Origin: a virus
Reading direction: 5' to 3' (one strand)
DNA: 22,333 nt
IMG/VR virus record: IMGVR_UViG_3300025652_000620
Coordinates: 1-22,333 of that record
The notes under the pieces are model-generated. The model searched no databases. It saw only the letters and a program-made list of their open reading frames with translations, and had not been told where the DNA came from. Below, in pieces: positions 1 through 22,218 of the stretch (position 1 is its first letter; each line of letters starts with the position of its first letter). A program made the position numbers and the translations under genes.

Positions 1-1332
1 TTCCGTCTCTGAGACAGCAATTGTGATGTGGTCCAGATAAATCAGCTTGCAGCCATTAACCGCCAAGTGTTCAATCTTTTCCACTAGAGAACCATCAGAC
101 ACAGAGCCTTGGTGGTCCACAAACATGGTCCTCCCAGGAAGCCCAACAGTCTCTTCCCAAGCTTGTCGTTTCTCCTCGTTAGAGACTCCGTGATCAGGAA
201 TCCCTAGTCTCTTGTTCAGATGAAGGCCAAGAATACCTGTTACGGTTTCACCCACGTCTTCCTCAAGAAAGCAGGCTCCAACCTTGTGATCGGTGGTCTG
301 GATGATGTGGTAGATATCCTCTCGTAACCACGTTGACTTACCCACCGAAGTACCTGCTGCCAACATCGTGATGGTGCCAAAGGCCCTCCCGTAGGTTAGC
401 TTGTTAAGTTGACCAAGGAAAGGAGCCCAAGGGACAAAGGTCATGTTGTCAAACTCAGTGACCTTCTCCCAAGTGTCCTCCCCCTTCACGATGCCAGCGG
501 GTGTGTACTCGGTAGCATCCCAGATGTAGTTCCAAACGGCTTTGAAACCGTCATTCAACTCCTTGGCATTCTTGACCGTGTCGTTAGCATCTTTCTCATT
601 GGATACCACGACCTTTACCTTGTCCACCCCTATAGCCCTAGCAGCCTCTTTGATGGCTGTCTGGCCCTGTGCGTCGTTATCGAACCATAGAATCACCTCA
701 TCGAACTTACGAATTGTTTCACGGTTCTTGACAATGAACTTGATCTGGTCTACACCGCCCATGGAACAAACAGGATAAATCTTGTTGTACTTCCACATGG
801 AGGCGGTGGCCACGGAGAGCGCATCTTCCTCGCCCTCAGTGATCACTAGCCGTCGGCCTCCGTTCTTGAAGTGCTCAAGACCGAAGACATCCTTCACATC
901 CTTTATGGCAAAGGTGTTCTTCTTATCGTTAGGGTCCTTGATCTTGTAACCCGTAGGCTCGCCAACAAGTCCTTCAGAGATTGGATAAAATCGCTTCTCA
1001 ACCTCACCATTAGATTGATAACTGGTCTTGACTCCGAAGAACTCACACACTAACTTAGAGATCTTTCTTTCTCGCATCCCCGGTGAAGGTAGAACCGAGA
1101 CGTCTTCCAGAGAAATCTCCGTAGCCCGATAGTGTGAGCGTTTGAAGTTGTCTTCGACTTCTTCTTTTGTGTGTTCGTCCTTCTTGTAGGTTGCTCTACA
1201 ACTGAAACAGTGATATTTGTTATCGTCGTAGAGTTGTGCCGCATCCGAAGACTTACACTTCGAACACGGCTGGTTTCTTTTCAGTATCCTGCCCAGACTG
1301 ACCGTCCCTTTCTGCTTACTTCTCGGCCCCAA
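1..1332 (-). CDS. Primase-helicase, T7 gp4-like (3' end beyond left edge)
   Basis: Bifunctional replication protein that lays RNA primers and unwinds DNA as a hexamer. Reading the minus strand, a zinc-binding start (CSKC...CFSC, about 1190-1275) is followed by the TOPRIM primase signatures ITEGEEDAL (about 830-850) and LWFDNDAQG (about 670-695), then the RecA-like helicase with Walker A AAGTSVGKST (about 335-365). This domain order is that of T7 gp4. The C-terminal helicase part lies outside the window. The start is uncertain: no ATG is in frame between the upstream stop and the zinc motif. A TTG at 1332 gives 22 residues before the first zinc cysteine, close to T7 gp4. The gene overlaps the end of the upstream kinase gene. 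A short ATG ORF ending AAG-TAA could alternatively enter this frame by a +1 shift. Function is very likely; the exact start is not settled. Confidence 0.9.
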   Translation of the reverse strand, partial: MGPRSKQKGTVSLGRILKRNQPCSKCKSSDAAQLYDDNKYHCFSCRATYKKDEHTKEEVEDNFKRSHYRATEISLEDVSVLPSPGMRERKISKLVCEFFGVKTSYQSNGEVEKRFYPISEGLVGEPTGYKIKDPNDKKNTFAIKDVKDVFGLEHFKNGGRRLVITEGEEDALSVATASMWKYNKIYPVCSMGGVDQIKFIVKNRETIRKFDEVILWFDNDAQGQTAIKEAARAIGVDKVKVVVSNEKDANDTVKNAKELNDGFKAVWNYIWDATEYTPAGIVKGEDTWEKVTEFDNMTFVPWAPFLGQLNKLTYGRAFGTITMLAAGTSVGKSTWLREDIYHIIQTTDHKVGACFLEEDVGETVTGILGLHLNKRLGIPDHGVSNEEKRQAWEETVGLPGRTMFVDHQGSVSDGSLVEKIEHLAVNGCKLIYLDHITIAVSETE

Positions 1333-7344: not shown

Positions 7345-7607
7345 CTCCTGACTCCAGTTCTTTCAATTAAGTTCTTCTGTAGCTGGTCAAACTCAATAGT
7401 CTTACGAAATACGGCAACAAGACCAGTCTCTAGGTGTTTGGCCTTGATACCAGCGTTGGTCCAGCCCATCCGCTTGATCTTCATAAAGAACCTAGCCGCT
7501 TCTTCGGGCTTGAAGACTACTCGGTTTGGACCCGAGTCGAGGTCGGAGTGGATCGCGAAGCTCCAAACAGCGTTCCTACGCTTGAGATTACCTCTTCTTT
7601 TACCCAT
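7341..7607 (-). CDS. Small basic hypothetical protein (88 aa)
   Basis: 88 residues with a very basic start (MGKRRGNLKRRN), then WSFAIHSDLDSGPNRVVFKPEEAARFFMKI. The first 91 nt overlap the 3' end of the HD hydrolase gene in another frame, so a shorter form is possible. The 3' end is coupled to the nucleotidyltransferase-like gene by ATGA. No family is recognised. Confidence 0.55.
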   Translation of the reverse strand: MGKRRGNLKRRNAVWSFAIHSDLDSGPNRVVFKPEEAARFFMKIKRMGWTNAGIKAKHLETGLVAVFRKTIEFDQLQKNLIERTGVRR

Positions 7608-8164
7608 TGCAACAAACTCTCTTGCTTTGTTTCTGTTTTAAACTCTGAGAAGCAAGGTTCTACTTGTTCCCAAACTCCGAGGGCGATTGCCTGCGCCTTG
7701 ACCAGCCGCTCTTGACTGGCGAAACCGACCGTGGAAACGATCTCAGGTCGGCTGACCAATGTGAAGAAATGCGACTCAAGTCGGTCCGCAAACTTCAACC
7801 AGACCTTCTCACTCGCTGTCAGATCGTACTGTGGGACCCCCGCTGCCCTCGCCATCTCGTGCTCCAACTCAGCGTGTTTAGCTGCCAGTTCTGGGTTGGC
7901 GACCTTGGCTGGGTAGGGTACGTCACCAGCCCAGCGCTCTCCACCGTCATGGAAGATAGCTGCCTTGATCAGTTCAAGGGAAGGATCTGGATGCAGCTTG
8001 AACAACAAGGCTGCGCACCCCCACTGGTGGTCAGCGTCGGTTTGCCCAAAGATAGACATGTAGGGGTTTGCGTGGTATCGGATCACTCGACCCGACTCGT
8101 AAACGTTCTGCAGTTCTGGGTGGAGTTCGTACTCAGTGAACGAATTGGCTTTTACAGTGTCCAA
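7517..8164 (-). CDS. HD-domain phosphohydrolase (YfbR/DatZ-like)
   Basis: 215 residues from a TTG start preceded by AAAGGAGTGATATAAA. An HD-domain metal site is visible: H31, H46 (ADHQWG), H72-D73 (FHDGGE), then GDVPYPAK at 80-86 and D127 (FADRLE). The GD.P.P.K motif is typical of the YfbR 5'-deoxynucleotidase group, to which phage dATP triphosphohydrolases such as DatZ are related. It would act on purine deoxynucleotides, but the substrate is inferred. The C-terminal 30 residues overlap the next gene and look unstructured (ASRSTPTSTRVQTE). It lies a few small genes from a second dNTP-hydrolase-like gene (8801-9166), suggesting control of the dNTP pool. Confidence 0.75.
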   Translation of the reverse strand: MDTVKANSFTEYELHPELQNVYESGRVIRYHANPYMSIFGQTDADHQWGCAALLFKLHPDPSLELIKAAIFHDGGERWAGDVPYPAKVANPELAAKHAELEHEMARAAGVPQYDLTASEKVWLKFADRLESHFFTLVSRPEIVSTVGFASQERLVKAQAIALGVWEQVEPCFSEFKTETKQESLLQWVKEEVISSVGTLFGASRSTPTSTRVQTE

Positions 8165-11471: not shown

Positions 11472-12844
11472 CTACGAGAACGCAAAATCGCTCTCTAACA
11501 CTTTTTTTATATCCAACTCGCCCTTCTTTGGAGCAAGGTCTAAACAGTCGAGTTGTCCCAGAACATCTTCAAGAGGCTCCGCTTCATAGAACTCGACAAA
11601 CTTCTCTCTAACCACTCGGAAGAGTGTAGAGATGTTCCCCGCCGTTGCGCCAAAAGAATCGTGACACAAGGACAGAGGGAAATCACAACCATCTGCCGTC
11701 AACATCAGGTGACAGGCATCGAAGCTGTGTACTAGATTTGGGGAAGCCCCTAGTCGTTGGGAGTCCTTAGACAGGACAGAGTTGTCCCAGTCTTCTAGCT
11801 GTATGTTCATTGACTGCCCAGCGTAGGACAGCTTAGTTCTTGCTACAGTGGGTTTACGATAGTTCTGAACAACAGGGAAGTTAGTGAACGGTGTCAACCA
11901 CTCAATGTGTTCTTCTCTCTCGTTAAACCTATCTGCTACAGTCTCAAACAACTGCAGCATGGACCCTAGCTTGTTGAGTCTCTTCCGAGAGACCTTGTGA
12001 AGCAGAGCCCCCAACTGGTTTGACCAGAGCTTTTCTTGCAACCCTAGATACTCGTTCATATCTCGAGTGTCATCCCAGATTTGTTGACCCATTCCGAAGG
12101 GCGTAGCCCCGTAGGACAACGTCATTACCCCTCGTTTAACAATCTTCCGTATAAGCTTGGGATCTTTAATCCTCCGCCAATACGCTGGAAAAAGAGCCTC
12201 TCTGAGGACCCTGTTATTGTTTCGATAGGTCTGTACAGCCTCCCAGGCGTTAGCCTTCTTCTCGGAGCCCCTTGGAGCTGTGTCGTAGTTTGTCTGAAGC
12301 CTAGTAGTCTCTTCAAGAACGTTATCAAGCCTTGAAAAGACCGCTGCAGGTAGCCTCATCTCCAGCATCTCTAGTTCGTCCCAGAGCAACTTCCCTACGT
12401 AGGCGTAGAGATCTCCGGGAGTATCGAGAGGTACAAGATTGACGTAAGGTGCTAGCTGCTCATCACGTGCCATTGCTGCTAGGTGCTGCGAACCGTTGTT
12501 GGATCCGTCAAGCGCAACAGGAAGACACGACATGAAAGTTTCTTGTTCGTTACCCTTGGCAACCCAGTCTGCAAGGAGGTTTAACTCCATACACGTCGCT
12601 AGGAAGACAAAGGGTTTGTCAGCCTTGAACCACCCAGTATTGTTGTAGGGGTCCTGAGCATAACTAAGGAACTCTTCATGTTTGTTGAGTGCCCATTCAG
12701 CTCTGTCATCTAGAGATATCTTGTCGTTACCGAAGCAGTTAGCTGCCTGAACTAACAGCCAGTAAAAACCGTCTTCGCCTATCTCGTCTCCTTTCGCTAG
12801 TAGTAACAAGCCCTTGGCGGTGTCACTAGCTTGCTCGTGAAAAA
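11472..12844 (-). CDS. Phage RNA polymerase, exon 2 (C-terminal 457 codons)
   Basis: Second exon of the single-subunit T7-family RNA polymerase. Joined to exon 1 it completes A-FFHEQASDTAKGLLLLAKG, matching the T7 NPQGNDMTKGLLTLAKG region. In the spliced numbering motif A is ALDGSNNGSQH (D383), motif B is KRGVMTLSYG (K507, Y515), and motif C is CHDSFG (D666), corresponding to T7 D537, K631, Y639 and D812. The specificity-loop region is near EWLTPFTNFPVVQNYRKP. The C-terminus LESDFAFS matches the T7 FAFA foot. Without splicing, translation would need the TTG at 12809, which has no Shine-Dalgarno; an independent second subunit is therefore unlikely. Exons total 2184 nt, exactly 728 codons with stop. 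Confidence 0.93.
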
Positions 12845-13127
12845 CATTATGTTCACTGAGGATCGTTAGCTCTCAGCCGTTTGTGGAGATGTCTGAATGT
12901 TTTGCCCTTTTCCGAAACAGCATGCCATTTTTCTTGCATTTTTTCTCCATAACTGCTGCATGTCACCATGCAGATCGGACTATATCATCACCAAATTGGT
13001 GCCTCGCGCTTCGAACCACTTGGCTCTACATAATAGTCTCTACACCTTCCCGTCAGGGCTTGGCTCGGTATTGTCTGCCTGGCACAGATGTCCACCGAAT
13101 TCACGAGGTTTATACAACGCCTTTACA
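12845..13127 (-). ncRNA. Group I intron in RNA polymerase gene (283 nt, no large ORF)
   Basis: On the minus strand the canonical core can be folded by eye. P1 pairs exon ACAGCGU (13134-13128) with guide GCGUUGU (13120-13114), giving the U-G splice pair. P3 is CCTCGTG (13108-13102) with CGCGAGG (13008-13002). P4 is TCGGT with ACCGA (13098-13094, 13069-13065). P6/P6a is GCC..CCC/GGG..GGT. P7 is GACTA (13038-13034) with TAGTC (12982-12978), in the consensus contexts GTAGAGACTA and GATATAGTCC. P8 is CACCA/TGGTG (13001-12989). P9 is CTGCATG-GTGA-CATGCAG (12973-12956). A P7.1-like stem (AGCC/GGTT) suggests subgroup IA. The intron ends in G at 12845. It has no endonuclease ORF; only a 25-codon frame near the 3' end, which I do not call a gene. 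Confidence 0.93.
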
Positions 13128-13938
13128 ACGCTGTGTTGCAGTAAACTCGACCCCTGAAATCTGTGTTGTACAGGTGGTAGAAGTTTGTCTCTAGATGTTT
13201 CTTTGCTAGACGATAGACACTGCTAGTCTCTATGTACAATGACTCACGTCGTTGTTGGTTCTCCTCGCTTGTGAATTTCAGAGGATTGTCGTCTAGCTCG
13301 TTGTTGATGAAGTACTCTATGACCTCGAACATTGGCTTGTTAACCATCCAGGCCGTCTGTCCAAGCTTGTTTAACATATTGAAAACAATAGGCTGTTTCT
13401 CCGGGCTGAACCCTTTGATGATACCTGGACGAGACTTTTTCACGATACCAATTCCGGTTTCGTGCATCCCACTAACCCAAGGGGCAGGAGGAACGTTGGA
13501 GGGGAAGAGGTCAATATTTTCTTCCTCAACAATTTGATCCCACAGTTCCATCAGGGCCTTCTTGTCCTTGACCAATATCTGGTAGGTCAAGTACTTGGAA
13601 GTCCTGTTTCGTTTAGTCTTGACGTGCTGAAGTCGATGCTCAATCAGACCCGCCTCTATGTAGGATACTAGAACAAACCACCCTGTGTGGCAAGCTCTAA
13701 TGGAGTTTCTTGGTAGCCTCAGCTGTTGCATGATTCTTCGGCCAACGCTGACCGACATGTCCACCAGTGTGGCTTTTCTCTCGATTGCCTTCAGCACCGT
13801 GGCAAACGAGTTGAGAATGATTTCTCTAGCGTCATGTTCCTTGAGATAAACAGTGTGGGTGTGCCTGTCTGCTCTCAACGACTCTTGCCGCTCTTCTAGG
13901 TCGGTAATTAATCGCTCAAGTACGAGACTCAATAACAT
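13128..13938 (-). CDS. Phage RNA polymerase, exon 1 (N-terminal 270 codons)
   Basis: First exon of the single-subunit polymerase that transcribes phage genes from its own promoters. It ends with the conserved YNTDFRGRVYCNTA region, the DxRGRVY motif of T7 RNA polymerase (near residue 424 there). It then reads TTG-TAA in unspliced RNA, so intron removal is needed. The start is the ATG at 13938, immediately after GAGGAGG, or the TTG at 13932, which has better spacing to the same Shine-Dalgarno. A longer frame to 14007 overlaps a better small gene. Only about 260 residues precede DFRGRVY, against about 420 in T7, so the N-terminal promoter-binding domain is short. An SP6-like promoter ends 19 nt upstream. 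Confidence 0.92.
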
Positions 13939-14074
13939 CCTCCTCTGTCGTTTCTGCTTTATCGTTACCTGGTGCGGGGTCTTCGTAGGTGTGTCCCCAC
14001 TTCTCATCTAACTGCCGAACCATTGATGAGAACCCAAGATTGTCGTCCTCCTGCTCTTTTTTCTTATTCTTCAA
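13916..14074 (-). CDS. Small acidic protein upstream of RNA polymerase (52 aa)
   Basis: A frame from a TTG at 14074 (AAAGGA 8 nt upstream) encodes a polar protein: KNKKKEQEDDNLGFSSMVRQ, then LDEKWGHTYEDPAPGNDK and an acidic end. It overlaps the RNA polymerase start by about 20 nt. The phage promoter motif lies inside it, so this gene would be skipped by transcripts starting there. An internal ATG would give 33 residues. No family is recognised. Confidence 0.5.
   Translation of the reverse strand: MKNKKKEQEDDNLGFSSMVRQLDEKWGHTYEDPAPGNDKAETTEEDVIESRT
13957..13973 (-). promoter_or_regulatory. SP6-like phage promoter before RNA polymerase
   Basis: The minus-strand sequence ACCAGGTAACGATAAAG is identical over 17 bases to the copy at 20503 and differs by one base from that at 17203. 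Its AGGTAACGATAAAG core resembles the SP6 promoter AGGTGACACTATAG. Taking the last G as +1, the leader to the polymerase ATG is 19 nt and contains only the Shine-Dalgarno. The position suggests that the polymerase amplifies its own expression. Promoter activity is inferred from repetition and spacing. Confidence 0.75.
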
Positions 14075-14990: not shown

Positions 14991-15511
14991 CAGTTTTTCC
15001 TTCCTAAGTCCCGAAACCAATCGGGTTTTTGACCTGTCTTCCACGTAGGGGTGACTTCATCGTGAGCCCAGCGGTAGTTCAGGTAAGTGCGATAGGCCAA
15101 CACAGTGTTATCGACTCTCGTAAAATCGACGCCGAGAGACTTGTTAGCTGCGGAGTTGTTGAAGGGTAGAAGGCCATCTCTCGGAAATTTGAAATAGTTG
15201 GCCTTAAACCAGGTGCTGGTGACCTGAAGGACTTCCCTCGCTCGGAGATGAACCTCTGGTCGGGAGCGTTTTAGTAACGCATCCATGTGTTGCATCAGCC
15301 AAGCGAACCTAGCTGGTGCAGAGCGTGCCCAAACAGCACAAGGGTGGTTGGGGTTGAAGGACTCATAGAGCCCCTCAGGCGGGTAGACAGTCTTCTCTCT
15401 AATAGCTGTAGAGAGCAACTGACCCGATTCCCTCACCATCTGATTAGCACGTTTATCGTCAAGAAAAAGCGCTGACTGTATCGGCGAGTGATGGCTTACG
15501 AATATGTTCAT
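14990..15511 (-). CDS. Conserved phage protein, function unknown (173 aa)
   Basis: Start at the ATG at 15511 with GGAGACCTC upstream. Recognisable features are MNIFVSHHSP, then LDDKRANQMVRESGQLLSTA, NHPCAVWARSAPARFAWLMQ and a C-terminal YRTYLNYRW...PDWF. The same motif order (D-K-x-x-x-x-M-V-x-E-x-x-Q-L-L-S, H-P-C-x-x-W-x-R-x-S/A) is found in a widespread uncharacterised phage family of similar length. The strongly conserved His, Glu and Trp suggest an enzyme, but I cannot name its reaction. It overlaps the GGCT-like gene by 53 nt. Confidence 0.65.
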   Translation of the reverse strand: MNIFVSHHSPIQSALFLDDKRANQMVRESGQLLSTAIREKTVYPPEGLYESFNPNHPCAVWARSAPARFAWLMQHMDALLKRSRPEVHLRAREVLQVTSTWFKANYFKFPRDGLLPFNNSAANKSLGVDFTRVDNTVLAYRTYLNYRWAHDEVTPTWKTGQKPDWFRDLGRKN

Positions 15512-15890
15512 GAGGTCTCCAATGATAGTGGTCTTTGATGATGGGGCAAGCAGGATATCGTGAGGCCGTCTCTTCCGGTACCAGATACATCCAACAGTCA
15601 GGTATCTGAACCCCACTGGCCTTAATGGTTACGGGCACCTGTTTGCGCTCGTAGAAGGTCGGGTGGCCCTCAAGCTGGTCCACTCGGTTAGCGATCTGAG
15701 GATCGTCTACGCGGTAGACCTCACCGACTACCTGAAGCGTCTGGCTACCCGTTTCAGAGGCAAAGGGAAAGCCACAGTCTGAGAGAAAGTACTCCCGGTC
15801 GGTTGTTGCTGCTCCGATGAATTCCGCCTCAAGCAGAAAGCGGTGATTTCCGAAGCCTTGCTTCAGGGTGCCATAAACAAAAATATACAT
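15459..15890 (-). CDS. Gamma-glutamylcyclotransferase-like (AIG2/GGCT) protein
   Basis: 143 residues. The N-terminal MYIFVYGTLKQGFGNHRFL is the hallmark YGTLK-G-x-N substrate-binding loop of the GGCT/AIG2 fold. VDQLEGHPTFYERKQVPV supplies the LEG-x-x-x-Y-x-R region, with candidate acid/base E74 or a nearby Glu. Family members release 5-oxoproline from gamma-glutamyl amines or peptides. Its use to a phage is unknown; it could act on modified amines or glutathione-related compounds. AAGGATGGGCTA precedes the ATG. The C-terminus overlaps the next gene. Confidence 0.8.
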   Translation of the reverse strand: MYIFVYGTLKQGFGNHRFLLEAEFIGAATTDREYFLSDCGFPFASETGSQTLQVVGEVYRVDDPQIANRVDQLEGHPTFYERKQVPVTIKASGVQIPDCWMYLVPEETASRYPACPIIKDHYHWRPHEHIRKPSLADTVSAFS

Positions 15891-17180: not shown

Positions 17181-17202
17181 ATCGTGTATTTCCTTGTTTT
17201 TT

Positions 17203-17219
17203 ACCAGGTAACGTTAAAG
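17203..17219 (+). promoter_or_regulatory. SP6-like phage promoter for rightward packaging genes
   Basis: Plus-strand ACCAGGTAACGTTAAAG followed by AAGGAGA. It aligns with SP6 AGGTGACACTATAGAAG at 13 of 17 bases over AGGTAACGTTAAAGAAG. With the final G as +1, the leader is 14 nt, ends in a strong Shine-Dalgarno, and reaches an ATG at 17233. It would drive the small terminase group. The call rests on the three-copy match and the layout. Confidence 0.75.
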
Positions 17220-17229
17220 AAGGAGATTC

Positions 17230-17258: not shown

Positions 17259-17343
17259 TAAGGTAAGAGAATTAACTCATGAGGAAAAAGCATCCGTTCA
17301 GTCGGGGGTTTCATCCGACTCAAAAGAAATTCGTATCCACTAA
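17233..17343 (+). CDS. Short ORF led by strong RBS (36 aa)
   Basis: An ATG after GAAGGAGATTCATT, the best Shine-Dalgarno in this block, opens MNYTNYFHNKVRELTHEEKA and ends at 17343, overlapping the small terminase in another frame. The terminase ATG at 17279 has only weak ribosome-binding sequence, so this frame may act as a translated leader that couples to it. Whether the peptide matters is unknown. Confidence 0.35.
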   Translation: MNYTNYFHNKVRELTHEEKASVQSGVSSDSKEIRIH

Positions 17344-17701
17344 CAAACCTAAGTTTTCATTAGAAGCGAGAAAGGCGATAGCAATGGTCCAAAAAAGCTC
17401 AGGGTTGAAGAACCACCGGGTTGCGACTGACAAGTTACGCGAACTCGACTTCGACCCAATCGACGAATTGATCCGAGAGCTAGAAGATTTAAACCGTATG
17501 ATCATGGAGGAACGAACTTCTTCGTCCCCTCGTTGGTCCTACATTGAAAAACTAAAAGCTCTACGAACCCGGATTCTAGAAGTCCTGCTCCCTTACCGTT
17601 ATGGCAAGGCACCGATAACGACGGTTGAGCACGAGGATTCTAGAGATCCTATTCGAATAATTCTATCCACGGAGGATAAAACCGATGATGACAATCCCTG
17701 A
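17279..17701 (+). CDS. Terminase small subunit, probable
   Basis: 140 residues. A basic N-terminal region (KKHPFSRGFHPTQKKF) is followed by helical segments: LDFDPIDELIRELEDLNRMI, then SYIEKLKALRTRILEVLLPY and RYGKAP. The D-P-I-x-E-L-I plus LLPYRY pattern resembles small terminases, which bind phage DNA and hand it to the motor. It is placed ahead of the large terminase on the same strand, as in T7 where gp18 precedes gp19. There is no close similarity to T7 gp18 that I can see. A phage promoter lies 60 nt upstream. Confidence 0.6.
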   Translation: MRKKHPFSRGFHPTQKKFVSTNKPKFSLEARKAIAMVQKSSGLKNHRVATDKLRELDFDPIDELIRELEDLNRMIMEERTSSSPRWSYIEKLKALRTRILEVLLPYRYGKAPITTVEHEDSRDPIRIILSTEDKTDDDNP

Positions 17702-17994: not shown

Positions 17995-18303
17995 TTAACA
18001 AAGTAGTAACTCGTTAGGCTTCTCAACCTTGATGTTCAGAAGCTCCTGAAGTGCTTTCGGTTTCTTCACGCGATAACGCAAGATGCCGATCCGTCGTCCC
18101 CACTTTTCGAGGATAAAGGTACAATTCTTGTCCAAGATATTCCAGGTTACAACTTCGTAGTCACGGCCCATGTGCACTACTCCGGCAAAGTCATCGCCTT
18201 TGTCGTCCTTGAACTCTAGCTCAAGAATGAAGCCGTCGTCTACAGGACAGCCAGAAAGATCGTGGTCGATCCAGGGTCCCCACTCTGTTTTTTCAGTCGT
18301 CAT
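17995..18303 (-). CDS. Conserved small phage protein (102 aa)
   Basis: Start chosen at the ATG at 18303 with AAAGGAA upstream. The WGPWIDHDLSGCPVDDG opening is the recurring W-x-P-W-x-(x)-GCPV pattern of short phage proteins of unknown function. It is followed by a beta-rich body (FAGVVHMGRDYEVVTW, CTFILEKWGRRIGILRYRV). It overlaps the HU-like gene by 11 nt, so the two form an operon running against the terminase genes on both sides. Confidence 0.65.
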   Translation of the reverse strand: MTTEKTEWGPWIDHDLSGCPVDDGFILELEFKDDKGDDFAGVVHMGRDYEVVTWNILDKNCTFILEKWGRRIGILRYRVKKPKALQELLNIKVEKPNELLLC

Positions 18304-18682
18304 TCGAGTTCCTTTCATACATAAAAGAGGCACGGCGTTTTCGATTGTACTCCCGCTGTGCTTCCCATTCTTCCATCTCTTCAGGAGAGATAGGTAACTC
18401 CCTGATTTGAGTTCTGAGAGCTTCCGCTACTCTAACCTTTGCCACCTTAGTTGGTACAGGCTCGTTAGCTCCTGATTTTTGCCCAAAGTAACCACTGGTT
18501 CGACTTCTGACGGTGTACCCAATGGAAAACAACCCGTTAAGTACTACATCGTCACCACGTTCCACCGCCTTGATGAGGCCTGCTACAACCTCATTAACAA
18601 GCATGATAGCGCCATCCCTAGTCAACTCTGGGAAGGTCTCTATCAGCTCATCAACTATTTCTTTTTTCGTGTAGCTCGACAT
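18293..18682 (-). CDS. HU/IHF-family DNA-binding protein
   Basis: 129 residues. The N-terminus (KKEIVDELIETFPELTRDGA, MLVNEVVAGLIKAVERGD) corresponds to the HU helices. VVLNGLFSIGYTVRSRT matches the G-F-G-x-F beta motif, and KVAKVRVAEALRTQI matches the HU end (P-K-x-K-x-G-x-x-L-K). HU proteins bend DNA without sequence specificity. The arm region (SGYFGQKSGANEPVPTK) is short, and a charged C-terminal tail of about 30 residues (PEEMEEWEAQREYNRKRR) is extra. It could help compact DNA for packaging, or counter host HU. Divergent from the large terminase with only 11 bp between start codons. Confidence 0.75.
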   Translation of the reverse strand: MSSYTKKEIVDELIETFPELTRDGAIMLVNEVVAGLIKAVERGDDVVLNGLFSIGYTVRSRTSGYFGQKSGANEPVPTKVAKVRVAEALRTQIRELPISPEEMEEWEAQREYNRKRRASFMYERNSNDD

Positions 18683-20472: not shown

Positions 20473-20502
20473 CTTTAATCTCCTTGATTTCATTGGCTTT
20501 CT

Positions 20503-20519
20503 ACCAGGTAACGATAAAG
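20503..20519 (+). promoter_or_regulatory. SP6-like phage promoter pointing right, antisense to small genes
   Basis: ACCAGGTAACGATAAAG, followed by AGGGAGGACCC, is identical over 17 bases to the copy before RNA polymerase. It faces right, whereas every gene from here to the edge of the window is on the minus strand. It could drive late genes beyond the window, antisense RNA over the paralogue array, or both. The orientation is taken from the SP6 alignment. Confidence 0.7.
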
Positions 20520-20545
20520 AGGGAGGACCCACCCCCGGTGAGACC

Positions 20546-20836
20546 CTAGGGAACCCCCTTCTTTCCCTCCTCTACAACCTCCTTGCAGAGAACTGAGTGA
20601 TCCCCCGGCTTACTGTGATACCTCCAGCGGACCCCTTCAATGTCCTGGAAGAACTCCAGAGCCTCATTAAGCTCAGGGTGTAGTCCGCTAACATTGGAAG
20701 AGATAATCCTCACATTGATGAAACGACCATGTTGATCATAGTCCTCGCTCTGCAGAGACTTCACAATCACAGGAGTAGTAGTACCCCTCATGAGCACCGG
20801 AAAGGGTACCTTGAACTCTTTACTTCTTCTTCCCAT
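20546..20836 (-). CDS. Hypothetical protein (96 aa)
   Basis: 96 residues starting MGRRSKEFKVPFPVLMRG, then a beta/alpha pattern (TPVIVKSLQSEDYDQHGRFI) and helix (PELNEALEFFQDIEGV). ATG at 20836 with AGAGGAAGAAAGA upstream. It does not carry the motifs of the adjacent paralogue array. It is the last gene of that operon. The function is unknown. Confidence 0.6.
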   Translation of the reverse strand: MGRRSKEFKVPFPVLMRGTTTPVIVKSLQSEDYDQHGRFINVRIISSNVSGLHPELNEALEFFQDIEGVRWRYHSKPGDHSVLCKEVVEEGKKGVP

Positions 20837-20854: not shown

Positions 20855-21136
20855 TTATTCTATCTCCCTCAGTCCGTCAACCTCTCTAACAGGCTCCACA
20901 GTGAGACTCTGAGCAATGACGTCTCGTTCTGTTATTTCCCAGGTATGACCCCTCTCACAGACGAAGCGTTTTGTTGTAGTCTCGCCGTTCTTGTCCCTAA
21001 AGTAGTCTTGCTCAAGGGTTGTGATACCGACAATACGGACCTGTAGTTGATTGTGTGTTGTACTCAGTATCCTGACCACCAATTTAGCATGAGGGATGTA
21101 AACCAGCGGCTGAGTCTCCTTGATGTATATCTCCAT
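20855..21136 (-). CDS. Tandem paralogue 1 (93 aa)
   Basis: Start at the ATG at 21136 (AAAAGGAAA before it) so that MEIYIKETQPLVYIP aligns with its neighbours. It has the family end motif FVCERGHTWEITERD (C-E-x-G-x-x-W-x-I-T-x-R-D), then an acidic tail. The N-terminal LGR of the neighbours is replaced by KLVVRIL, so it is the more divergent member. Expected fold is a small beta barrel. The function is unknown. Confidence 0.65.
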   Translation of the reverse strand: MEIYIKETQPLVYIPHAKLVVRILSTTHNQLQVRIVGITTLEQDYFRDKNGETTTKRFVCERGHTWEITERDVIAQSLTVEPVREVDGLREIE

Positions 21137-21393
21137 TTTCCTTTTTCCTTCAACAAAGTCTTTCTCTTTCGAAAGTCTATCTTCGCGATGAACCATCGTC
21201 GACCTTGCACACAAACCATTGCTTCTTCAAAAGAGAGCAGATGCTGCCGCCGAAGATGGCGAGAGATCACCTGGCCTTGTTCGTCTAAAAGAGGTACAAG
21301 GGCTAAGCAACCGTGTCTCGAACCCACTATTCGACCTACGTAAGACCCTTTGTAGAAGAACAACGGACCGTCGTTTCCAAAGTTAACTACCAT
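21064..21393 (-). CDS. Tandem paralogue 2 (109 aa, longer tail)
   Basis: MVVNFGNDGPLFFYKGSYVG aligns with the array's N-terminal motif, and MVCVQGRRWFIAKID with the C-terminal one (Glu replaced by Val). After this it continues about 35 residues beyond the usual end and overlaps the next gene by 73 nt, probably because an ancestral stop was lost. GGAGACGGGGCA precedes the ATG. Confidence 0.6.
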   Translation of the reverse strand: MVVNFGNDGPLFFYKGSYVGRIVGSRHGCLALVPLLDEQGQVISRHLRRQHLLSFEEAMVCVQGRRWFIAKIDFRKRKTLLKEKGKWRYTSRRLSRWFTSLMLNWWSGY

Positions 21394-21674
21394 TGCCCCG
21401 TCTCCCTCTCATGCTCCACAAGTGTGATTCTTGTTGTCGAGTAGTTCACCGACTCCACCACCCAAGACCACCCCTGTTCGCAGATCAGAGGCTGACGGCC
21501 AACACTATTCAGAAAAGGCCTCTTGAGAAAACGAGTCTTAGACCTATAACCGACGGCGACTACTCTGAATGCAAGGCTATCACCCTCGTACTCGACCAGC
21601 GTACCGAGGTGGGAAGTACTTGTTATAAAGAATAACGGAGACTCTTCGACATAGTCGATAATCATTTTCTTCAT
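21387..21674 (-). CDS. Tandem paralogue 3 (95 aa)
   Basis: MKKMIIDYVEESPLFFITST followed by LGTLVEYEGDSLAFRVVAVG, then LICEQGWSWVV. It matches the array pattern: acidic residue before PLF, an LG/T turn, then C-E-x-G-x-x-W. AAAGGGGATAACCA before the ATG; a second ATG three codons later aligns better with paralogues 4 and 5. It overlaps gene 2 by 7 nt. The function is unknown. Confidence 0.65.
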   Translation of the reverse strand: MKKMIIDYVEESPLFFITSTSHLGTLVEYEGDSLAFRVVAVGYRSKTRFLKRPFLNSVGRQPLICEQGWSWVVESVNYSTTRITLVEHERETGQW

Positions 21675-21677
21675 TGG

Positions 21678-21938
21678 TTATCCCCTTTGTTCCAGAGCAA
21701 GAACCTGCTCCTCAAGATCTCGCCGCGTGATCCTCCATCTGTGACCCGCTTCGCAGTAAAGATAGCTCTCACTCGTGGCGAACCGTATTGGCTTCTCGAG
21801 GCACTTAAAGCGGTTACCAGTTATGAGACCAAAGACCGTGAGGTTCATCGAGTACTGACGAAGCTTCTGCACACGGCCCAGACAACTGCAGCTCGGAAAG
21901 TAGAATAGTGGGGAGTTGTCCCCGCAGTTAATGATCAT
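21678..21938 (-). CDS. Tandem paralogue 4 (86 aa)
   Basis: Start at the ATG at 21938 (AAGGAGACCTGCTA upstream), giving MIINCGDNSPLFYFPSCSCL with GRV after it. The end reads YCEAGHRWRITRRDLEEQVL. It shares the CG.xxPLxYxPxCxCLGR signature most closely with paralogue 5, including a C-x-C pair that could bind metal. The longer frame to 21956 only adds bases inside the preceding gene. Confidence 0.7.
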   Translation of the reverse strand: MIINCGDNSPLFYFPSCSCLGRVQKLRQYSMNLTVFGLITGNRFKCLEKPIRFATSESYLYCEAGHRWRITRRDLEEQVLALEQRG

Positions 21939-22218
21939 TAGCAGGTCTCCTTGCATAAAGTTTCGTCATGACGGTTTGCTCGCTAGGGTCTCGCTTTGTC
22001 ACCGCCCAGCAGTCACCCCCCTCACAGTAAAAGAAGAGTTCATCCGTGGAATACGGGAACGGGTTGTCATACCACCAAAGTCCATGATTGGCCCGGCAGC
22101 CGACGACTTCCAACCGCAAGCTGTATTGAGCCACTCCCACTAGACGACCCAGGCAACCGCAGCCAGGGGGGTAGAGTAGCGGGGTGACACCCCCGCAGCC
22201 GATAACACGGTATTTCAT
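21928..22218 (-). CDS. Tandem paralogue 5 (96 aa)
   Basis: First gene of the array in reading direction. MKYRVIGCGGVTPLLYPPGC with GCLGRLVG next, then FYCEGGDCWAVTKRDPSEQ. AAGGAGTAGCGGG precedes the ATG. It overlaps paralogue 4 by 11 nt. Together with 4 it defines the consensus of the family. The function is unknown. Confidence 0.7.
   Translation of the reverse strand: MKYRVIGCGGVTPLLYPPGCGCLGRLVGVAQYSLRLEVVGCRANHGLWWYDNPFPYSTDELFFYCEGGDCWAVTKRDPSEQTVMTKLYARRPANDH

Follow-up and report, generated by a model that had tools for sequence, protein, structure and literature searches.

Five small genes lie side by side on a viral contig of 22,333 bases, and they raise the question of whether they are copies of a single gene and, if so, what a phage might gain from several versions of one protein. 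We refer to this whole contig, which lacks end repeats, as the window.

A run of five small genes in a phage fragment

We compared the window with known phages. Its TerL is 53-54% identical to those of the roseophages DSS3_VP1 and DSS3_PM1 (Naomviridae, Noahvirus), and the C-terminal part of its T7-type RNA polymerase is 44% identical to theirs. Judged by the sequence relatedness of both TerL and the T7-type RNA polymerase, the window is a 22-kb piece of the genome of a siphophage related to Naomviridae. In closer uncultured relatives, the terminase is 71-74% identical to that of the window and the RNA polymerase mostly 54-60%, and these relatives have many replication genes in common with it.

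The five genes are consecutive and occupy positions 20855-22218, where an earlier note on this DNA had placed them. The minus strand carries all five, and they are therefore transcribed in the direction from 22218 to 20855, member 5 first and member 1 last. We placed their starts by ribosome-binding sites and alignment, at 22218, 21938, 21674, 21393 and 21136. The first gene to be transcribed, member 5 (21928..22218, minus strand), encodes 96 aa from ATG 22218 with AAGGAG upstream, and its product is cysteine-rich (six cysteines), with a C-G-C. Member 4 (21678..21938, minus strand) encodes 86 aa from ATG 21938, also with AAGGAG upstream, and carries a C-S-C. A longer reading frame for member 4 begins at 21956, and the structure model described below was built from that start; the Shine-Dalgarno sequence and the alignment suggest that ATG 21938 is the better one. 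Member 3 (21387..21674, minus strand, 95 aa) is the protein of the second structure model. Member 2 (21064..21393, minus strand, 109 aa, pI 10.8) has a family core that stops near residue 80 and a tail that runs 73 bp over the next gene. For member 1 (20855..21136, minus strand), the TTG start at 21214 in the list of open reading frames is probably too early, and ATG 21136, which gives 93 aa, fits the Shine-Dalgarno sequence and the alignment better.

With the revised starts, neighbouring genes overlap at three junctions (11, 7 and 73 bp) and are 3 bp apart at the fourth. Thus the five genes are consecutive, as had been described, and overlap at three junctions, not at all four. Since the upstream end of the run is close to the end of the contig, further copies beyond 22333 are possible. 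The gene that follows the run (20546..20836, minus strand, 96 aa) is a non-member without a family-profile match, and its product has no match in Pfam or PHROG. A terminator-like hairpin with a T-rich tail, recognised by consensus match only, is found just past this last gene (20519..20536, minus strand).

Homology among the members and their predicted fold

We tested the kinship of the five proteins with profiles and with pairwise alignments. In leave-one-out searches, the HMM always found the omitted member (5/5), with E-values from 1.4e-7 to 7e-21 (member 1, 5.7e-10; member 2, 1.4e-7; member 3, 1.3e-11; member 4, 7e-21; member 5, 6.9e-14), while the best non-member among the other window ORFs and related contigs reached E 0.16. 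The Smith-Waterman scores of seven of the ten pairs exceed all 2000 shuffles, and that of an eighth pair was reached by one shuffle in 2000. These eight pairs score 50-173, as against at most 43 for members aligned with 32 other window ORFs. The two other pairs, 1-2 and 2-5 (both with a score of 33), were reached by 68 and 97 of 2000 shuffles and are not separable directly. Members 4 and 5 are the closest pair, with 36% identity and a common C-x-C, as the earlier note had recognised; the remaining pairs are about 19-28% identical. The P-L, C, G and W positions are invariant in all five, while identity elsewhere amounts to only about 19-36%. A loosened motif pair, PL[FLV][FY] ... CxxGxxW, is present in all five members; among the 422 six-frame segments of 30 residues or more, exactly five contain it. 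The motifs in the literal form first proposed hold for part of the family: the N-terminal motif fits three members and fails in two, the C-terminal motif fits four and fails in one, and LG[RT] is found in three and missing from two. The family profile found no sixth member in the window (next best E 1.7). From these comparisons, the five genes almost certainly constitute one homologous family. Eight of the ten pairwise scores and the recovery of every omitted member are far from what random alignment gives, and the duplication with divergence suggested beforehand is supported by both the Smith-Waterman controls and the leave-one-out profiles.

We searched for this family elsewhere. None of the five members has a significant match in Pfam, PHROGs, NCBIfam or PADLOC, whose models represent defence, not counter-defence. 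The best matches of member 1, DO-GTPase1 (E 0.019) and phrog_18310 (E 0.045), were both taken as chance. No homologue was found among PDB sequences (best E 0.91), in plasmid records searched with member 4, in five protein scans of viral contigs (with member 4, member 5, an alignment of both, an alignment of members 1, 4 and 5, and member 1) or in two scans of genome contigs (with the alignment of members 1, 4 and 5, and with member 3). In phage records, tblastn with members 4, 1 and 3 gave best E-values of 2, 5 and 4, respectively, and these hits were rejected. Distant homologues may be missed by these scans, whose queries were a few short peptides or, for tblastn, a single sequence. The family is also absent from 34 related records (27 + 4 + 3, with DSS3_VP1 counted twice), many of which are fragments, so that absence from any single one is weak evidence; in the searches of 4 and 3 records, the window served as a positive control and was found (5/5). 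Of 35 RNA-polymerase loci, the family-profile search covered all but the nine most distant (L038-L046). The earlier note had called the family unrecognised, and this description stands across the family libraries, the PDB, and phage, plasmid, viral and genome contigs. The multi-copy clusters that it proposed to look for in phage genomes did not emerge, either from tblastn with members 4, 1 and 3 or from the 34 related records. Within a limited set of search terms, we found no paper on the five-member family. The family is new, an orphan, and ordinary in kind.

We also predicted the structures of two members. AlphaFold2, given the five-row alignment, modelled member 4 with a pLDDT of 91.0 and a pTM of 0.79, as an all-beta protein of eight strands and one three-residue helical turn. 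The five models of this job have pLDDT values of 91.0, 91.0, 80.7, 69.6 and 68.5, only two of them above 90. Member 3, modelled from members 1-3 only (4 and 5 left out), reached a low-confidence pLDDT of 65.5. The secondary structures of the two models agree at 79% of 89 aligned positions, compared with 48% on average and 69% at most in a circular-shift control, and the member 3 model has a helix mid-protein where the member 4 model has a strand. The expectation that structure prediction would give one fold is supported by the model of member 4 and, more weakly, by the strand register of the poorly modelled member 3, the two proteins modelled. On the strength of the models, the five members probably keep one shared fold.

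Which fold this might be is suggested by structural comparison. Foldseek gave weak matches, with small heat-shock proteins on top in the PDB (E 0.094, with poor TM-scores) and a best E of 0.078 in BFVD, where one phage protein named SH3-type matched with an rmsd of 1.9 over 49 columns (E 0.79). In the VIA realignment of the member 4 model, Spt5 KOW came first (Z 4.0, rmsd 3.0, 60 aligned), and below it were Pif1, the RapA N-terminal domain, L21e and Agenet/Tudor domains. The matches that recur in both models are Spt5 KOW, the RapA N-terminal domain, L21e and other barrels that we take to be SH3-like. Many such barrels are listed, with Z up to 4.0 for the member 4 model and up to 4.5 for the low-confidence member 3 model, and other rows, for example TCL1/MTCP1, are present as well. 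The SH3-like label thus derives from barrels that recur among the matches listed, not from one strong match, and a fold family outside these lists may apply instead. The structural matches are weak, and beta sandwiches of the heat-shock type lead the Foldseek PDB list; the models make a barrel of the SH3-like (KOW/Tudor) type, with a beta hairpin added at the C terminus, no more than the somewhat likelier class. The window model and the SH3-like domains (Spt5 KOW, the RapA N-terminal domain, ribosomal L21e and the Pif1 SH3-like insert) have in common an all-beta arrangement over 37-60 model residues. They differ in that Z is at most 4.0, there is no sequence similarity and the window model has the extra C-terminal hairpin, and the likeness may be only a common arrangement. 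The calculated pI of the members ranges from 5.6 to 10.8 (members 1 and 3, at 5.6 and 6.7, count as acidic or neutral, and members 2 and 4 as basic), indicating that what the members conserve is the core, not a surface shared by all.

A variable block and possible roles of the family

We investigated the corresponding region in the relatives with 71-74% identical TerL. In them, the same place is occupied by a variable block of small minus-strand genes, and their terminase gene is followed by small genes on the opposite strand, as in the window. A Pfam scan of ten block proteins found two Lar restriction-alleviation proteins, one dCMP deaminase, one cell-wall hydrolase and one RNA ligase; of the remaining proteins, one fell just under the metallophosphatase cut-off and four had no Pfam match. 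A second small family (alignment A9), without a Pfam match above cut-off, is found in this block in one or two tandem copies per contig (L049 15715-16376, L071 8515-9110 and L074 16398-16706). It occurs at eight places in five of the 16 records searched, a count in which two record pairs score near-equally and may be near-duplicates, and for which the profile was built from members, or close copies, of four of the five positive records. Like the family in the window, it consists of small proteins encoded in the same minus-strand block, but it has another motif (P, VE, W, E-x-G) and another C-terminal part, and kinship of the two families was rejected at an hhalign probability of 0.65%. The variable genes and the unrelated small tandem family of the relatives indicate that this place is a variable block where small tandem families recur. 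The term accessory region, used in the earlier note, is supported: the block varies among relatives (Lar, dCMP deaminase, RNA ligase), and the family is missing from the 34 related records.

We propose that repeated tandem duplication of one gene, in a variable minus-strand accessory block adjoining the terminase genes, gave rise to a lineage-specific family of five. All members would retain the core of a single small all-beta domain that most resembles an SH3-like barrel (KOW/Tudor type) with a C-terminal hairpin, in which the invariant P-L, C, G and W would be scaffold positions and charge and loops could vary freely. The proteins may be made early, a timing read from strand and neighbourhood only. 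The surface of each would bind a host protein or nucleoprotein, such as a defence factor or the nucleoid or transcription machinery, and the copies may have diverged so that, between them, several targets or several variants of a target are covered. Reuse of the scaffold against several host targets is suggested by the tandem duplication in an accessory block, the deep divergence around an invariant core and the differing charge. Two things favour counter-defence, the Lar neighbours in relatives and the known tandem multiplication of small counter-defence genes (tifA, AcrID1). We give a probability of about 0.45 to this main reading, an accessory counter-host cassette that arose by tandem duplication of one beta-barrel scaffold with diverged surfaces, and the host-directed role in it is equally tentative.

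Two known systems resemble this arrangement. It is reported that 26 of 35 AcrID1 homologues are close together in four rudiviruses (SIRV), so that small viral proteins occur there, too, in several diverged neighbouring copies per genome (PMC11065993). AcrID1, however, is a known anti-CRISPR of archaeal viruses, and no sequence relation to the window family was found (no Pfam match). T4 is reported to overcome toxIN via tandem amplification of tifA, an 85-aa toxin inhibitor gene, and this segmental dmd-tifA amplification is likewise a tandem multiplication of a small counter-defence gene in a phage (PMC9391042). Its copies are described as recent and as arising under laboratory selection, whereas the window members are only about 19-36% identical.

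The recurring KOW, Tudor and L21e matches would also suit a set of nucleic-acid-binding modules that act on the host nucleoid or transcription, with copies that differ in affinity for DNA or RNA and not in protein target. T4 MotB provides a precedent: this early protein is described as binding DNA tightly and improving fitness, and its N-terminal domain is predicted to be KOW/SH3-like (PMC7827196). Like the window proteins, MotB is small, has a part predicted to be SH3-like/KOW and is encoded in a non-essential region of a phage, but it is reported as a single gene with two domains (predicted KOW and OB-fold) that is conserved through Tevenvirinae, and the window family has no Pfam or PHROG link to it. 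Members 2 and 4 are basic, as such binding would favour. However, members 1 and 3 are not, none of the five matches Pfam KOW at E up to 10, and the alignment shows no conserved basic patch. We regard nucleic-acid binding as an unlikely role for the set. The five paralogues might instead be the subunits of one obligate complex, as in Sm-type barrels. Small barrels of this kind often oligomerise, and the five genes are similar in size and tightly packed in one run. The identities are uneven, with 36% for one pair and about 19-28% for the others, and a five-subunit complex is improbable.

Much the same improbability attaches to a near-neutral expansion, in which a duplicated gene drifts without strong function and some copies are already decaying. 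The 73-bp run-on of member 2, the loss of the motif's E in the same member and the fact that none of the relatives searched keeps the family could be read in this way. Against it, all five reading frames are open, each with start signals, and P-L, C, G and W are invariant in otherwise highly diverged sequences. The relatives DSS3_VP1 and DSS3_PM1 are reported to have dU-DNA (PMC12697855), and DSS3_PM1 has an ORF homologous to that of an HD-domain nucleotidase in the window. Both facts would suit proteins that inhibit uracil-DNA glycosylase or guard a deoxyuridine genome in a related way. Neither of these two phages carries the family. Known DNA-mimic inhibitors are uniformly acidic, unlike the five members, and we regard this explanation as very improbable.

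The counter-host cassette can also be put in a bolder form, namely that a new beta-barrel scaffold diversified into a five-protein counter-defence cassette, with each copy for a different host defence or variant, and that the unrelated tandem family of the relatives serves the same purpose at the same position. This form is quite unlikely. For new inhibitors of bacterial immunity, the small tandem gene families of phage accessory regions are a promising place to look, and five strongly diverged versions of one domain provide a compact set for asking whether duplication broadens the target range. The unrelated one- or two-copy family in the same block of the relatives suggests that the position itself favours expansions.

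Other features of the window

A group I intron (Rfam RF00028, 75.5 bits, E 8e-18) at 12956-13166 on the minus strand, between the RNA polymerase ORFs 13123-14007 and 11472-12809, appears to interrupt the T7-type RNA polymerase gene of the window. In the relatives, the matches to both RNA polymerase parts adjoin, and in most the distance between them is about 35 bases. A 24-base element (TACCAGGTAACGWTAAAGARGGAG) occurs in two near-identical copies, at 17202-17225 and 20502-20525, each close upstream of a minus-strand gene start, and none are expected in shuffles. They are possibly a candidate promoter for the phage RNA polymerase. Their 11-base core does not occur in the related loci, except for one match in L036.

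Between 17279 and 20040, the clear plus-strand genes of the window are the large terminase gene and, at 17279-17701, what is probably the small terminase gene. Two minus-strand genes are located between them, one of which encodes an HU-type DNA-binding protein (18293-18682). In the annotation of DSS3_VP1 (L004 4001-6021), an endonuclease VII gene separates two pieces of the terminase large subunit, and DSS3_PM1 differs in this respect. The HD-domain nucleotidase mentioned above (PF13023, phrog_6047) is encoded at 7517-8164 on the minus strand and has no match in the closer relatives examined. DSS3_VP1 is described as making deoxyuridine DNA with an HD-family dTMP phosphatase (PMC12697855). The window also encodes a gamma-glutamyl cyclotransferase-like protein (phrog_2520, E 1.9e-23) at 15459-15890 on the minus strand, with matches in the relatives.
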